DNA from: a virus | Length of the DNA stretch: 38,597 nucleotides | Strand: one strand, 5' to 3' | Virus record (IMG/VR): IMGVR_UViG_3300011115_000967 | Span: 1 to 38,597 of that record | Shown here: positions 1,971 through 31,661 of the stretch, in pieces | Position numbering within the stretch: position 1 is the first letter of the stretch | Layout: every line of letters begins with the position of its first letter | Program-made: the position numbers and the translations under genes | Notes under the pieces: model-generated | What the model saw: the letters and a program-made list of their open reading frames with translations, nothing else | Told to the model about the DNA's origin: nothing | The model's database searches: none

Positions 1971-3248
1971 CTACCAACCATATTTTGACAATATACTTGG
2001 AATGGAGAAGGCTCCATCTTCTTTCTGATAAAACTCCATGATTGCAGCGATGGTTCTTCCTACTGCCAAGCCAGAGGCGTTAAGAGTATGAAGAAACTCA
2101 TTCTTTCCAGCGGGAGTCTTATACTTAATGTTTGCTCTGCGGGACTGAAAATCCCAAAAGAGAGTGGCAGAAGAGATCTCACGATAAGCTCCCTGTCCTG
2201 CCATCCAAACCTCAATATCATAGCCCTTATAGCCGCCAAACCCAAGGTCTGCGGTGCAACGCTCAATTACTCGATAAGGGAGACATAATGCCTGAAGAAT
2301 AGATTCCGCATCAGCAGTAATCTTTTCCAACTCTGCAAGAGAATCTTCCGGCTTGCAGAAAGAAACTAATTCAACCTTGTGAAATTGGTGGAGTCTAATT
2401 AGACCTTTAATATCTCGACCGGCAGAACCAGCCTCTGCTCTAAAACAGGGGGTAAAGGCCACATGACGAACAGGTAGTGACTCTTCCGAAATAATCACAT
2501 CGCGATAGAGGTTTGTAACTGGAACTTCTGCTGTTGGAATAAGGAAAGCATCTTCTCCAGCAATTTTATTGCTTAGTTTGAAAAGATCTTCTTCAAACTT
2601 TGGAAGCTGACCAGTCCCAGTCATAGTTGTTCTGGTGACAATATAGGGAACGGAAACTTCTTCGTAGCCTTTTCTAGTGTGACGTTCTATAAAGAAGTTG
2701 ATCAGGTGACGATCTAGCCTTGAAAGATTACCCTTCATTACCATAAATCTGGAGCCAGATAGTTTTGCGCCAGCCTCTCCAGAAAGCTCTCCGGTAACCT
2801 CTCCAATCTGATCATGAGTTAGGGCCTTCTTTATTGCCCATTCATCGCCCCAAGAGCGAACTAGAGGATTATCCGAATCTCCGGCTCCATCTGGAGTCGA
2901 ATCAGAAGGGATATTTGGGATGTGAAGAAGAATCTCTTCTTCCTGCTCTTGAAGCGGAGAGAACGAAGCCTCTAGGGATTGAATCCTAGCCTTTAGGTTT
3001 GCTAGGTTATTCTGCTCTTCTGCCCTTTCCTCTGGAGAAAGGGTCTTTACTTTTGCTCCAAACTCTTTGGACTTAATATTCATTTCGGCCCGAAGAGCTT
3101 CGAGAGAAGTTTGAATTTCGCGTCGATTGCGAATTAGCTGAGAAAGTCCATAAAGATAGGTTGCAATCTCTTCATTGTTACCAACCTTTCTCTTGATCCT
3201 CGCTACTGTAGCATCAAAGTCTTTGACGAATAGATTTTTATCAAGCAT
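1971..3248 (-). CDS. serS: Seryl-tRNA synthetase (phage-encoded)
   Basis: A full-length class II SerRS (425 residues; bacterial enzymes are about 420-430). It charges tRNA-Ser with serine. Residues 1 to about 115 form the long antiparallel coiled-coil arm that recognises the tRNA-Ser variable arm. The catalytic domain has motif 1, the 'TAEVP' serine-binding segment, motif 2 with the 'FRAEAG' loop, and motif 3 ending 'GLAVGRTIAAIMEFYQ'. All key segments are present, so activity is likely. Small departures include 'ATLFWDFQSRR' where most have a Ser-x-Cys-x-Asn-type stretch. The start codon overlaps the stop of a 49-codon gene. No tRNA-Ser gene lies in this window. Confidence 0.95.
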   Translation of the reverse strand: MLDKNLFVKDFDATVARIKRKVGNNEEIATYLYGLSQLIRNRREIQTSLEALRAEMNIKSKEFGAKVKTLSPEERAEEQNNLANLKARIQSLEASFSPLQEQEEEILLHIPNIPSDSTPDGAGDSDNPLVRSWGDEWAIKKALTHDQIGEVTGELSGEAGAKLSGSRFMVMKGNLSRLDRHLINFFIERHTRKGYEEVSVPYIVTRTTMTGTGQLPKFEEDLFKLSNKIAGEDAFLIPTAEVPVTNLYRDVIISEESLPVRHVAFTPCFRAEAGSAGRDIKGLIRLHQFHKVELVSFCKPEDSLAELEKITADAESILQALCLPYRVIERCTADLGFGGYKGYDIEVWMAGQGAYREISSATLFWDFQSRRANIKYKTPAGKNEFLHTLNASGLAVGRTIAAIMEFYQKEDGAFSIPSILSKYGW

Positions 3249-8884: not shown

Positions 8885-9088
8885 TCATTTTACTTTTATC
8901 AGAGGTTCTATCTTGCAGTAGCAGTAGTCATCATAAAATATAAATTGATCTATACAATGATCCCTACAGTCAGGGCCTTCTTTTTTATAAAGAGCTTCGG
9001 CAGAGAAGTAACCAAGAGCAAAGGAGATAATTCCGCCAATAATAAGAATTGGAGTAATTATAGAGGCTCTTTCTTGATAGTAAAACAT
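8885..9088 (-). CDS. Small membrane-anchored Cys-rich protein 1
   Basis: A 67-residue protein with one hydrophobic segment (about residues 10-30) and a short tail with C-x3-C and a C-Y-C pair. The protein at 16234-16416 has the same layout and Cys spacing. Such a tail would lie in the periplasm, where disulfides could form (inference). It begins at an ATG overlapping the acyl-CoA dehydrogenase stop (TAATG), with GGAG upstream, so the two are translationally coupled. Confidence 0.72.
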   Translation of the reverse strand: MFYYQERASIITPILIIGGIISFALGYFSAEALYKKEGPDCRDHCIDQFIFYDDYCYCKIEPLIKVK

Positions 9089-10995
9089 TACTTCTCCAGG
9101 GTGGTCATTCTTTCCAAGACTCTACCAGAGCTATAATCTGAACAAAACTCTCTTTCTTTTGTAGGAAGAGGATCTTGCGTAACTAACGGAAACTCCTCTG
9201 CTCCAAACATAATGGCATTTGCTGCCGCGACTGCTTCCTTATCAGCATTGTTATTTACGGCATCAAAGAGTCCATCAACAACAATCTTGCGCTGAGTCAG
9301 AAGATATTCGACAACTTCCTTATTATTTAGATCTCCAGACCCTCTTTCTCCTTGGTGACGAGAAACAACAAGAGCCATTACCGCAAGTTCTGCTCCAATG
9401 TCAACCAACCTTCCAAGAATTCCCTGTCGCATCTCCAGCTTTGGACCCTTTAGTACCATCTGATGGAACAGGGTTCTTGCCAGACGGCGTGTTTGACTAT
9501 CAATCCAGCTCAGATGATCTCTTAGATCATAATCAAACTCAGAGAATGATCTAAATGCTCCTCCCACAAAGGTCTTAAGATACCATGTGGGATAAATAAG
9601 GGCACATTTTCCTATCACCTTTGCCTTATCCCATAAGCTTCCTTTGCGGAAAAGACCTCCAGCATTTTTAAGGTGACCATCGAGAGCCTCTCTTGCTAAG
9701 AAGAGATGCATAATATCGGTAGTTCCCTCAACAATTCTGTTGATTCTAGTATCTCTTAGGGCGCGCTCTAGCGGAAATCCGACCTCTCCTCTTTCATTTA
9801 GAGAAGCCTCTGTCTCAAAGCCTCGTCCAGCACGAAGCTGAAGTGCTGTATCGGTCAACTCCCATGACCTCTCAGAGTTCCACATTTTAGCAGCTGCGGC
9901 TTCCATTCTAATATCAACATCGTGACGATCTGACATAGCAGCGCCATATAGAGCAAATGTTTCCATAGCGTAGGATAGTGCTCCAATCTCTGCTAGCTTC
10001 TGAGCACCAGCCTCATGGCGACCAATCTCTTTGCCCCACTGATTTCTTGTCTTTGCCCAAGAAGCGGAGAAAGCTAAAATATCCTTTGAGGTAAAAGCTG
10101 CAACAGCAGGAATTCCAAGACGACCGTCATTTAGGGTGGTAAGAGCCAACTTAAGACCCTTTCCCTCTCCAAGAATAACGTTTTCGGCTGGAACCTTAAC
10201 GCCATTGAAGCGAATTAGACCATTCTCAATTGCCCTAATTCCAAGAAATCTGCAACGATGGACTACCTCTACTCCTTCCCACTTTCCCTCAACAACAAAA
10301 GCGGTAATTCCCTTTCTACCATCGGCAGAAACAGTCCTTGCCATAACAACATAAAGATCGGCAAGGGTTCCGTTAGTACACCAAAGCTTCTCACCCGTCA
10401 AAACCCAGCTTCCATCTTCCTGTTTAACAGCGGTAGTGCTCATATTGGCTGGGTCAGATCCTGCTCCTGGCTCAGTTAGAGCGAAAGCAGTCAATTCTCC
10501 TGCGGCAATTCTTGGAAGGTATTTCTTCTTTTGCTCTTCTGTTCCGAAAAGCTTTAGTGGCTGAGGAACACCAATCGACTGATGTGCCGAAAGAGTTGCA
10601 GCGGTTGATCCACAGTAGTTAGCAACAGTTCCAATGATTCTCATATAGTTAGTCTGAGACATTCCAAGACCACCATACTCCTTTGGAATCTTAATTCCAA
10701 AGAGTCCCAGCTCTGCTAGACCCTTCCAAACGTGGGCTGGAATCTCCTGAGATTTATCAATAGCATCACCGTCAAGATGCTGACCTGCCCACTCATTTAC
10801 CTTTGAAATTACGGCATCACCAATCTCCTTGTCCTCTTTTGACTGAAGAGGAAACGGTGAAGCAAGAGAAAGGTCTAACTCTCCCATAAACATTGATGCC
10901 ATAAATGACTTGGACTTCCAATCCATTTCGCGGCTTTCTTCTGCTACCTGAATTGACTTTGCCTCATCTTGAGTACGATTTTTATTCTCTATCAT
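9088..10995 (-). CDS. Acyl-CoA dehydrogenase, VLCAD/ACAD9-type length
   Basis: A 635-residue flavoenzyme homologue that would introduce a trans-2,3 double bond into acyl-CoA, with FAD as cofactor. Residues about 60-180 form the N-terminal helical domain. 'ALTEPGAGSD' near 190 is the family signature for FAD and substrate, and 'RIVEGTTDI' gives the probable catalytic base Glu423. Residues about 445-620 form an extra helical region as in very-long-chain enzymes. Nothing looks broken. GGAGAAAT precedes the ATG. The neighbours are phage-like (a small membrane protein and the 5'-3' exonuclease), so it looks like an auxiliary metabolic gene; the electron acceptor would have to come from the host. 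Confidence 0.94.
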   Translation of the reverse strand: MIENKNRTQDEAKSIQVAEESREMDWKSKSFMASMFMGELDLSLASPFPLQSKEDKEIGDAVISKVNEWAGQHLDGDAIDKSQEIPAHVWKGLAELGLFGIKIPKEYGGLGMSQTNYMRIIGTVANYCGSTAATLSAHQSIGVPQPLKLFGTEEQKKKYLPRIAAGELTAFALTEPGAGSDPANMSTTAVKQEDGSWVLTGEKLWCTNGTLADLYVVMARTVSADGRKGITAFVVEGKWEGVEVVHRCRFLGIRAIENGLIRFNGVKVPAENVILGEGKGLKLALTTLNDGRLGIPAVAAFTSKDILAFSASWAKTRNQWGKEIGRHEAGAQKLAEIGALSYAMETFALYGAAMSDRHDVDIRMEAAAAKMWNSERSWELTDTALQLRAGRGFETEASLNERGEVGFPLERALRDTRINRIVEGTTDIMHLFLAREALDGHLKNAGGLFRKGSLWDKAKVIGKCALIYPTWYLKTFVGGAFRSFSEFDYDLRDHLSWIDSQTRRLARTLFHQMVLKGPKLEMRQGILGRLVDIGAELAVMALVVSRHQGERGSGDLNNKEVVEYLLTQRKIVVDGLFDAVNNNADKEAVAAANAIMFGAEEFPLVTQDPLPTKEREFCSDYSSGRVLERMTTLEK

Positions 10996-25165: not shown

Positions 25166-25261
25166 TATTACTTCTTTTTCAAGAGATTATCAAAATCTCT
25201 AATCGGGTTTTGTTGATCCTGGTTTTGTCCCGACTTCAACGGCACCTATTACCGTCACTAT
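25166..25261 (-). ncRNA. Duplicated two-hairpin RNA motif, copy 1
   Basis: Read leftward after the gene at 25267: an ACGG/CCGT hairpin, then GGGACAAAACCAGGATCAAC closed by CGGG/CCCG, then an AGAGATT/AATCTCT hairpin. The second copy at 27292-27349 keeps the loop sequences but changes the stem to GTGGG/CCCAC, so pairing is preserved. It could be a 3' regulatory element or small RNA. Confidence 0.55.
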
Positions 25262-25266
25262 TTTAT

Positions 25267-27228: not shown

Positions 27229-27291
27229 ATTTCTACTCCCGGCATTGTTATCTATTGTGCCTAGAAAATTATTCTTTTACAAAGTATCCAA

Positions 27292-27349
27292 GTGGGTTTT
27301 GTTGATCCTGGCTTTGTCCCACATTCAACGGTGTGTATTACCGTCACAA
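27292..27349 (-). ncRNA. Duplicated two-hairpin RNA motif, copy 2
   Basis: Same order as at 25166-25261: ACGG/CCGT hairpin, then GGGACAAAGCCAGGATCAAC within a GTGGG/CCCAC stem. It follows the stop of the gene at 27365. Stem changes relative to copy 1 keep pairing. Confidence 0.55.
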
Positions 27350-27364
27350 CTTTTGCTTTTCTCT

Positions 27365-27640
27365 CTACCAATAACAAAGAGTATCTGGCCCGTGAAAGTA
27401 AAAGATACCATAACTAGTTTGACTAGACACAATATCAAAAAATTCAGAATCAGAAATTTGCTTCAAATCTCTAGGCACTTCTGATCCATTGTTTGAGCAG
27501 AGATGCCAAGCTCCATTATAACAAACAACGTTGTAACAACATACCTGGCAGATTGGACTTGGATCACCATACCAAACTCTAACCCAATCTTGCTTTGGTA
27601 TGAGATTAATATCATCAACTTTGTGAAATTTCATACTCAT
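27365..27640 (-). CDS. Hypothetical Cys/Trp-rich protein
   Basis: A 91-residue protein from the ATG at 27640 (GGAG 9 bases upstream). 'CQVCCYNVVCYNGAWHLC' holds five Cys close together, suggesting a zinc or disulfide knot. It sits between the second small-protein paralogue and the second RNA motif, where the first copy of this block has nothing. Confidence 0.65.
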   Translation of the reverse strand: MSMKFHKVDDINLIPKQDWVRVWYGDPSPICQVCCYNVVCYNGAWHLCSNNGSEVPRDLKQISDSEFFDIVSSQTSYGIFYFHGPDTLCYW

Positions 27641-29180: not shown

Positions 29181-29488
29181 TTGAGCCTCCCGGATTTGAA
29201 CCGGGGACCGGTCGGATATCTTACCACTTCGTCTTTCGACGCCAGATTAATCTGTTTGTGGTCTGGACTATACCTTGATCTTCGACGTTATTTTAGTAAC
29301 TCGTTAAGACCCGCGCCGTCTAGTCTCTACACATTCCCAAAGTTTCCTTTGGTTAGCTCGGGGTTGCCATATCTTATTTCTAAGATTAAGGGTTCTCCGA
29401 ATTTGACGCGATTCACATTAGAAGTTTCTTTCTAAGTGCTCATATTAATAATTCAAGCCGACTGCTCTAACCACTGAGCTAAGACTCA
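29181..29488 (-). tRNA. tRNA-Ile(UAU) interrupted by a group I intron
   Basis: Exon 1 (29455-29488): acceptor TGAGTCT, TA, D arm GCTC/GAGC, A, stem GTCGG, CTU. Exon 2 (29181-29219): AUAU, stem CCGAC, variable loop, T arm CCCGG-TTCAAAT-CCGGG, acceptor AGGCTCA, A. Joined loop CTTATAT gives anticodon UAU (AUA codons). The split lies after position 34. CCA is not encoded and must be added. Confidence 0.85.
29220..29454 (-). ncRNA. Group I intron in tRNA-Ile
   Basis: 235 bases with group I core: GCUU of exon 1 pairs with guide GAGC (U-G at the splice site), CAAATTCGGAGAACCC and AACCCCGAGC, P7 strands GAGACTAGACGGC and GTATAGTCC, and a final G. Related to, but clearly diverged from, the tRNA-Asn intron. 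No inner reading frame. Confidence 0.9.
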
Positions 29489-29522: not shown

Positions 29523-29598
29523 TGGCAGGAGATTCAAGACTTGAACTTGAAATACAAGCTTAGAAGGCTCGCGTGATATCCACTTTCACCAATCTCCC
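29523..29598 (-). tRNA. tRNA-Arg(UCU)
   Basis: A 76-base tRNA: acceptor GGGAGAT/ATCTCCT (first pair G-U), G and encoded CCA, anticodon arm CGAGC-CTTCTAA-GCTTG (UCU), T arm TCAAG-TTCAAGT-CTTGA. It reads AGA/AGG, codons often scarce in bacteria and common in AT-rich phages. Confidence 0.88.
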
Positions 29599-30008: not shown

Positions 30009-30037
30009 ACCTTATCCGCCCCCTAGCGGATCGTCAA
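30009..30037 (-). promoter_or_regulatory. Tandem promoter 4
   Basis: Minus strand: TTGACG (30032-30037), 17 bp, TAAGGT (30009-30014), with AAAAAATACC upstream. CCGC/GCGG inverted repeat in the spacer. A GCGGG/CCCGC hairpin follows the start site. Confidence 0.65.
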
Positions 30038-30075
30038 GGTATTTTTTAGATCCGATTTAATTCAGCTTTCTGACC

Positions 30076-30235
30076 GAAGGCATTAAAATAACTCGCTAAT
30101 TAAAGAGGCTCATTGAGGGTTTCGGCATAGCCCTAATCTGAGGAAGCATATGACTTTAATTAATGTAAGGACGGATTCACCGTCATAGCCGATTGAGTAA
30201 CTCTAAACTTAGCGGGTTATTTTGATACCTTTGCT
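30076..30235 (-). ncRNA. Tandem structured RNA, unit A
   Basis: About 160 bases, no reading frame. Ends pair over a long stem: AAGG and ATAACTCGCTAA with TTAGCGGGTTAT and CCTT. Inside, GACGG-ATTCA-CCGTC forms a hairpin, and CGGCTATG / GCTATGCCGA-type blocks are conserved with unit B. Differences from unit B in the stems keep pairing, good evidence for RNA structure. Confidence 0.7.
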
Positions 30236-30257
30236 CAGATTATTTTGTTTTTAGCCC

Positions 30258-30419
30258 AAAGGCATTAAGACAACTTGCTAACTAATGGGGTTCATTATGG
30301 CTTTCGGCATAGCGCAAAATCGGAGTGTACGAACATAGATGATTTTATCTTGATAGATTCACTATCATAGCCGATTGAGTGTCCCATAAACTTAGCGAGT
30401 TGTTTTGATACCTTTGCTC
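30258..30419 (-). ncRNA. Tandem structured RNA, unit B
   Basis: Homologue of unit A. Closing stem AAAGG and ACAACTTGCTAA with TTAGCGAGTTGT and CCTTT; inner hairpin GATAG-ATTCA-CTATC. Strand is assigned minus because a -10-like TATATT with the usual GGTGCG before it lies just upstream at 30454 on that strand. I recognise no known RNA family. Confidence 0.7.
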
Positions 30420-30453
30420 TAGCGGGCGACGGGTTGCATCGCCTCGCCACTAT

Positions 30454-30481
30454 AATATACGCACCGGATCAGATAGGAAAA
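30454..30481 (-). promoter_or_regulatory. Possible promoter of the tandem RNAs
   Basis: Minus strand TATATT (30454-30459) preceded by CCGGTGCG, as in sister promoters, but the -35 (TTTTCC) is poor. A GGCGA/TCGCC hairpin follows at about 30424-30443. Confidence 0.45.
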
Positions 30482-30593: not shown

Positions 30594-31661
30594 TTAATTA
30601 TTTTTTACAATCCAATCCATTAAACCTTTGTATTTTAAAATAACCTCAGGATTTTCTGGAGAAAATTTCCAAAGAACATTTTCTGCAGAACTCTTATAAG
30701 ATGCTGGATCATGCTCTTTTATCATTTTGATGACATTATTTTTTGCAGATACAATATCAAAATCGCTATAATAATAGCCTGCATCCATACAGAATTGGCT
30801 ATTATGAGTTATTGGAATGTTTAGATATAACGACTCTAGTGTAACATAATTTAAATCATTTTCAAAATGATTAGATAGTATTGATCCGTTATATTTATTT
30901 TTTAATATAAATGGAAGTGGATACCTGTCTTTTAGAGAGATTTTTCCGCTTAAATAAATAGGAACTTCATTAATTAATGATAGCCTATTTTCTTTTTTTT
31001 GCTCATAAGTTGAAAATATAGTTGCAGAGTTTATGCAGTTAGGGCTTTCCTTGTTGACTAAATTTAAAATAGCAAGTGGAGCTAAAAGAGTTTTTGTTAT
31101 TGATATATTTGGCTCAAATACTCCAACATCACCTATTCTTGATAAGCAAGACTCTATATCAAAATTAAAATCATCTTTCTTAAGAGATATTTTCAACATT
31201 TCTGGGGACCAAATATATGGTATTGTTTTAGTATCTCTTCTTGATAAAATATCTAATATTGGCTTTGAGTTTTCAATATAGTGTGGCGATGTTAATATTG
31301 TGTGACCAACCCTAACTAATGATGGCATTCTTTTGTGGCTTGGTAGAAAGTTCTCGTGATTTGATATATAAAAATTACCGTACTGAATGGTTAGCAACCT
31401 TTTTCTTGAATCTTTTAATTTTAAAAAAAGATTTTCTGTAAGATTTGTTGAAGCTTCAAATATAAAATCAAATGAATTTATATTTTTTTCAGATATTTTT
31501 ATTATTGGAATTCCAAAGATATCATTATCTTCTTCCAATTGAGATATTGGATATGCATTATATCCAATTTTTCTTAATATTTTAATCAAAAGATATACAT
31601 TCTGATGCATACCGTTTGACCATGCCTTGTGGGTTCCTCTTGTTGTTATTCCTATTTTCAT
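30594..31661 (-). CDS. DUF2827-like glycosyltransferase-type protein
   Basis: A 355-residue protein fitting the DUF2827 pattern as I recall it: N-terminal 'SNGMHQNVYLLIKILRKIGY', 'PYIWSPE', 'GVFEPNISITKTLLAPL', 'ENDLNYVTLESLYLNIPITHNS' (in pieces) and 'DAGYYYSDFD'. The family looks like a GT-B-type glycosyltransferase of unknown acceptor. The gene is very AT-rich compared with the rest of the window. Its ATG overlaps the stop of the upstream gene (ATGA). A role in DNA or surface glycosylation is only a guess. Confidence 0.78.
   Translation of the reverse strand: MKIGITTRGTHKAWSNGMHQNVYLLIKILRKIGYNAYPISQLEEDNDIFGIPIIKISEKNINSFDFIFEASTNLTENLFLKLKDSRKRLLTIQYGNFYISNHENFLPSHKRMPSLVRVGHTILTSPHYIENSKPILDILSRRDTKTIPYIWSPEMLKISLKKDDFNFDIESCLSRIGDVGVFEPNISITKTLLAPLAILNLVNKESPNCINSATIFSTYEQKKENRLSLINEVPIYLSGKISLKDRYPLPFILKNKYNGSILSNHFENDLNYVTLESLYLNIPITHNSQFCMDAGYYYSDFDIVSAKNNVIKMIKEHDPASYKSSAENVLWKFSPENPEVILKYKGLMDWIVKNN

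Follow-up and report, generated by a model that had tools for sequence, protein, structure and literature searches.

The leader of bacterial rRNA operons carries processing stems and antitermination sites, and, to our knowledge, how large phages express their long tRNA clusters is poorly understood. Phage HK022 makes the put RNA, of about 70 nt with two stem-loops, which is present in two copies per genome and acts on early genes; with no phage protein required, it binds RNA polymerase and suppresses termination, and putL is situated immediately after the early promoter (PMC9378689). Phages also contain the GOLLD RNA, a large structured noncoding RNA (PMC12286853), and comparative genomics has yielded candidate structured RNA motifs that were recognised by covariation and synteny and whose function is unknown (PMC2864571, PMC8040213).

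The window, that is, the whole 38.6-kb IMG/VR virus record studied here, appears to be part of the genome of a large tailed phage. The majority of its genes are on the minus strand, and its content includes a seryl-tRNA synthetase, an acyl-CoA dehydrogenase-like protein, a 5'-3' exonuclease, homing endonucleases, tRNAs and a group I intron. The phage-borne synthetase (1971-3248, minus) is 78-80% identical in two related contigs. The acyl-CoA dehydrogenase-like protein (9088-10995, minus; 635 aa), an unusual phage cargo, has all three domains of that family, and two related phage contigs encode counterparts of about 90% identity. Leftward from a DUF2827 gene (30594-31661, minus), the order is the promoter-like motif P0, unit B, unit A, four tandem promoters and the tRNA cluster (Table 1; helices and promoters are numbered separately).

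Table 1. Positions of the paired units, their helices and the neighbouring minus-strand signals in the window.
Feature	Position	Strand	Sequence or remark	Basis
Element copy A	30070..30240	minus, from promoter context; pairing alone leaves the strand unfixed		Covariance model and alignment; fold z-scores
Element copy B	30252..30423	minus, from promoter context		Covariance model and alignment; fold z-scores
Closing helix P1 of A	30075..30099 + 30209..30233		Two arms	Pairing in alignment and structure
Closing helix P1 of B	30257..30281 + 30392..30416		Two arms	Pairing in alignment and structure
Helix P3 of A	30122..30126, partner 30188-30192		TCGGC, partner GCCGA	Invariant in 3/3 copies
Helix P3 of B	30304..30308, partner 30370-30374		TCGGC, partner GCCGA	Invariant in 3/3 copies
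Hairpin P4 of A	30170..30184		GACGG-ATTCA-CCGTC	Sequence
Hairpin P4 of B	30352..30366		GATAG-ATTCA-CTATC	Sequence
tRNA-Arg(tct)	29523..29598	minus	First tRNA downstream of the promoter array	
P0 promoter-like motif	30440..30475	minus	ATCTGATCCGGTGCG-TATATT-ATA-GTGGCGAGGCGA; predicted start ~30450	No clear -35
Four tandem sigma-70-like promoters P1-P4	29686..30037	minus	TTGACG-17-TANNNT-3-GGGG	-35 starts at 30037, 29944, 29827, 29714

A and B are two tandem units about 182 nt apart, identical at 122 of 168 aligned positions (73%). The element measures about 160-180 nt, with one nested hairpin system per copy. Common to A, B and a third copy described below are helices P1 (25 bp), P2 (8 bp) and P3 (5 bp), a variable arm and hairpin P4, of 5 bp with a five-base loop that reads UGAAU on the minus strand; in the third copy, P4 is GACAG-ATTCA-CTGTC. 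The original prediction described two tandem units with paired stem changes, no reading frame and no matching RNA class, and our analysis agrees with it on each point. Both of the stems that it quoted were located: hairpin P4, and a closing-stem segment in which ATAACTC/GGGTTAT of A becomes ACAACTT/GAGTTGT in B, with one G.U each on the plus strand and the rest Watson-Crick. Neither unit has an open reading frame of at least 60 aa, and a 51-aa GTG frame in B is not conserved. Also considered was a short conserved peptide beginning at the minus-strand ATG of hairpin P4; it was judged a chance feature, given that its stops vary among the copies and that it has no ribosome site. A pseudoknot between a UCGGC loop and GCCGA was dropped because this pairing is nested, being helix P3. 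Rfam 15 found only tRNAs and a group I intron in the whole window, both elsewhere, and left the elements unmatched; in permissive scans, the best score was 17.3 bits for the elements, where a gathering score of 45 is needed, and 14.9 for the third copy, where 40 is needed. The literature searched contained no account of tandem leader RNAs in a phage tRNA operon.

The third copy was found in the related contig IMGVR_UViG_3300043427_004450 (hereafter G001) at 66946-67128 (L002 1144-1326). It is a single copy that shares 74% identity with A and 64% with B, and as a homologue it bears out the predicted pairing, which is largely kept. Its position is the same as that of A and B, between P0 and the promoter array. 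The genes beyond P0 differ between the two phages while the position of the element stays; therefore, the element travels with the promoter region of the tRNA operon. This was the one true match to five DNA patterns across 2.9 million IMG/VR viral contigs: the pattern matches L004 and L005 were chance by inspection, as were, by model search, 102 of the 103 matches of the loosest pattern. No homologue was found in GTDB species genomes (one exact DNA pattern and one protein scan), no blastn match to the window copies in phage and plasmid records and none to the third copy in phages, where it should be borne in mind that distant relatives escape searches by exact pattern or blastn. The covariance model, run on fetched sequence only, revealed no convincing copy in two other contigs (G003 and G004) or in three named phage records, and the window and G001 hold no further copies elsewhere; two further related contigs, G002 (80.8 kb) and G005 (102 kb), stop short of the element region.

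Several results indicate that the pairing has been selected. Against dinucleotide shuffles, the minimum free energies of all three copies have z-scores of -3.9 to -5.7, on both strands. Among the three sequences, 6 of 43 pairs have changed on both sides with pairing kept, a number reached by 0 of 500 shuffles; sliding the partner by 1-3 columns leaves 0-1 such changes. When the same number of transitions was placed at random at stem sites in simulation, the observed count of double Watson-Crick replacements arose at a frequency of 0.0003 to 0.023, according to the copy pair. Stem differences are exclusively transitions in the three pairwise comparisons (13/13, 8/8 and 15/15; 36/36 summed), a count biased by the choice of the stem set as paired columns, and the contiguous 25-bp closing helix is also without transversions; unpaired positions have 14, 13 and 19 transversions (46 of 98 differences summed). 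Since the three comparisons are non-independent and the stems were partly defined on the same sequences, these statistics are strong indications, not exact probabilities, that base pairing is under selection in three sequences from one lineage. A and B are thus a real structured element outside the known families. The matched-pair stem changes, the same place in a related phage and the lack of a match to a known RNA family make it probably a new structured RNA. Of the selected RNA structure originally predicted, then, the selected pairing stands; that it is RNA rather than a hairpin at the DNA level, and that it is read from the plus strand, as was implied, are not established.

P0 points leftward, with a predicted start about 30 nt upstream of B. 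Its -10 is TATATT and its start GTGGCG/GGGGCG, in a block 78.6% identical to that of the relative. The motif GGTGCGTATA[T/A]TATAGGGGCGAG recurs at G001 65412, there with a -35-like TTGATT placed 17 bp upstream, and window 19788 has a similar form; P0 is of the same motif family as other minus-strand promoters. Motifs of this type are rare by chance, at about 0.15 per shuffled record, and a generic promoter scan missed P0. That scan did detect the strongest promoter of the downstream array, TTGACG-17-TATAAT (11/12). The array promoters share the exact spacing TTG[A/C]C-17-TANNNT-3-GGGG on the minus strand of both phages (66560-66902 in G001), with fixed 17-bp spacers, and promoters of this type were found nowhere else in the six records scanned. 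Several of the spacers carry inverted repeats of differing sequence (ATCCGC..GCGGAT, TTAACC..GGTTAA), and short G-rich hairpins follow each array promoter start. The statement of the original prediction that the units lie upstream of the promoters and the tRNAs is true only when the locus is read on the minus strand, which it did not specify.

The tRNA cluster has features of its own. A second repeated motif, GTGACGGTAAT...CCGTTGAA followed by GTCGGG/TGTGGG-ACAAARCCAGGATCAACAAAA-CCCGAT/CCCACT, occurs at 25180-25262 and 27275-27372 (minus) and at L018 9615-9725; its core is strongly conserved, it has apparent matched stem changes and Rfam gives no match. The hairpin GACACTCTGGAAAGACAGAG occurs five times in the tRNA cluster of each phage (window 29623, 28186, 28099, 24594 and 24248, minus; five G001 sites), several times directly ahead of a tRNA, and is possibly a processing or punctuation signal. 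The group I intron (29244-29457, minus, 66 bits) seems to interrupt a tRNA gene; in the matching stretch of G001, the tRNA-Ile(tat) genes are uninterrupted.

It is tempting to propose that the longest transcript of the phage tRNA operon starts at P0, runs on the minus strand and carries A and B as tandem structured RNAs in its 5' leader, a reading that we favour tentatively, with belief and doubt in near balance. RNA polymerase would start at P0, transcribe a 5' hairpin, B and A, and continue through promoters P1-P4 into the tRNAs, and transcripts begun at promoters P1-P4 would lack A and B. By analogy with put RNA, a cis element present in the P0 transcript only could protect polymerase from termination along the whole untranslated operon, which is long; alternatively, the leader might offer double-stranded processing sites. 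We infer transcription from P0, the minus strand and the cis role. The proposal is supported by the six double-sided, pair-keeping changes, the all-transition stem changes, the fixed position between P0 and promoter P1 in two phages, the membership of P0 in the minus-strand promoter family, the four further minus-strand promoters in both phages and the closing helices, each of which still forms independently when the leader from P0 to promoter P1 is folded. It is weakened because the pairing does not favour the minus strand and because P0 is without a clear -35 and escaped the generic scan. A conserved structured element that separates the first of five promoters from the other four would be a concrete, testable control point, and possibly a protein-free RNA regulator of transcription. 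That it represents an undescribed class of tandem phage leader RNA which modifies RNA polymerase or RNA processing specifically for the tRNA operon of a virus, so that the phage would run a stable-RNA operon like that of host rRNA with its own RNA-only control element, we think improbable.

The same minus-strand RNA might instead be excised from the leader, with RNase III cutting at the 25-bp helices as one conceivable route, to yield stable small RNAs that act in trans, perhaps by binding a protein or RNA polymerase. The closing helix spans about two helical turns and each copy folds as an independent module, which would suit excision, as would tandem copies whose loops are conserved and whose variable arm is divergent. 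We regard this as rather unlikely, since no result suggests a trans target or a protein partner and no Rfam sRNA matches.

Pairing gives mixed evidence on the strand. The consensus fold energy is -48.2 kcal/mol on both strands, and 96.1% of cells are paired on the plus strand versus 91.5% on the minus. Read on the plus strand, the wobble-type changes at variable pairs comprise five G.U and two A.C; the evidence is mixed because the former are all in A and B and the latter both in the third copy, and with invariant sites included, the count is 7 to 3, without significant strand bias. For helix P1, the duplex energies of A and B are -28.6 and -29.7 on the plus strand versus -22.7 and -22.5 on the minus; in the third copy, the minus strand has the lower value (-27.4 versus -23.0). 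The purine content of the loops is uninformative about the strand. A pair of small RNAs made from the plus strand and antisense to the leader of the operon, the orientation implied originally, would accord with the greater share of paired cells, the stronger helix P1 duplexes of A and B and the somewhat lower fold energies. Yet we found neither a promoter-like site on the plus strand nor a terminator behind either copy, the preference of the third copy is for the minus strand, and transcription would run head-on against five minus-strand promoters; we deem such RNAs less probable still than excised ones. Genomic context favours the minus strand, and we consider a minus-strand RNA reasonably probable.

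Least likely of these alternatives, in our view, is an element acting at the DNA level: a long imperfect inverted repeat working as folded single-stranded DNA or as a protein-binding palindrome, or a relic of a miniature transposon. The strands fold nearly equally, the wobble count has no significant bias and the element has inverted ends of about 27 bp, as read from its sequence, all of which this explanation would accommodate. Against it, no target-site duplication is visible at the ends, neither the window nor the relative has other copies, the element occupies one locus in two phages, and a transposon needs neither the inner hairpin nor the invariant helix P3. A MITE or transposon relic was rejected, despite the inverted ends, for the missing duplication and the restriction of copies to this locus; an integron attC-like site for the absence, on reading the sequence, of RYYYAAC/GTTRRRY boxes at both ends and of cassettes between the copies; a retron ncRNA for the lack of a PF00078 (reverse transcriptase) match in the window record and three related contigs, all of them fragments; and 6S RNA for the lack of an Rfam match and for its large central bubble, where the internal loops of the element are small.

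How, then, does the locus compare with the systems described at the outset? GOLLD is associated with tRNA genes and is several times longer than A and B, which its own Rfam model does not match. The resemblance to a bacterial rRNA operon is that a stable-RNA operon without translation is preceded by strong tandem promoters, whose starts are G-rich, and by a probable structured leader; this leader differs in having no conserved boxA-like site, and the idea of a boxA leader was rejected, the boxA-like stretch of A being lost in B and in the third copy. Like the motifs of comparative genomics, the element is recognised by covariation and synteny, but here from only three sequences. With HK022 put, it would share a structured RNA in a phage leader, two copies and a promoter-proximal position. 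It differs in its length, its 25-bp closing helix and its place ahead of tRNAs, and one nested hairpin system of 160-180 nt is not the form of put, with two stem-loops in about 70 nt. In kind, A and B belong with what is already known, as a probable structured RNA of a phage, in a leader or otherwise noncoding.
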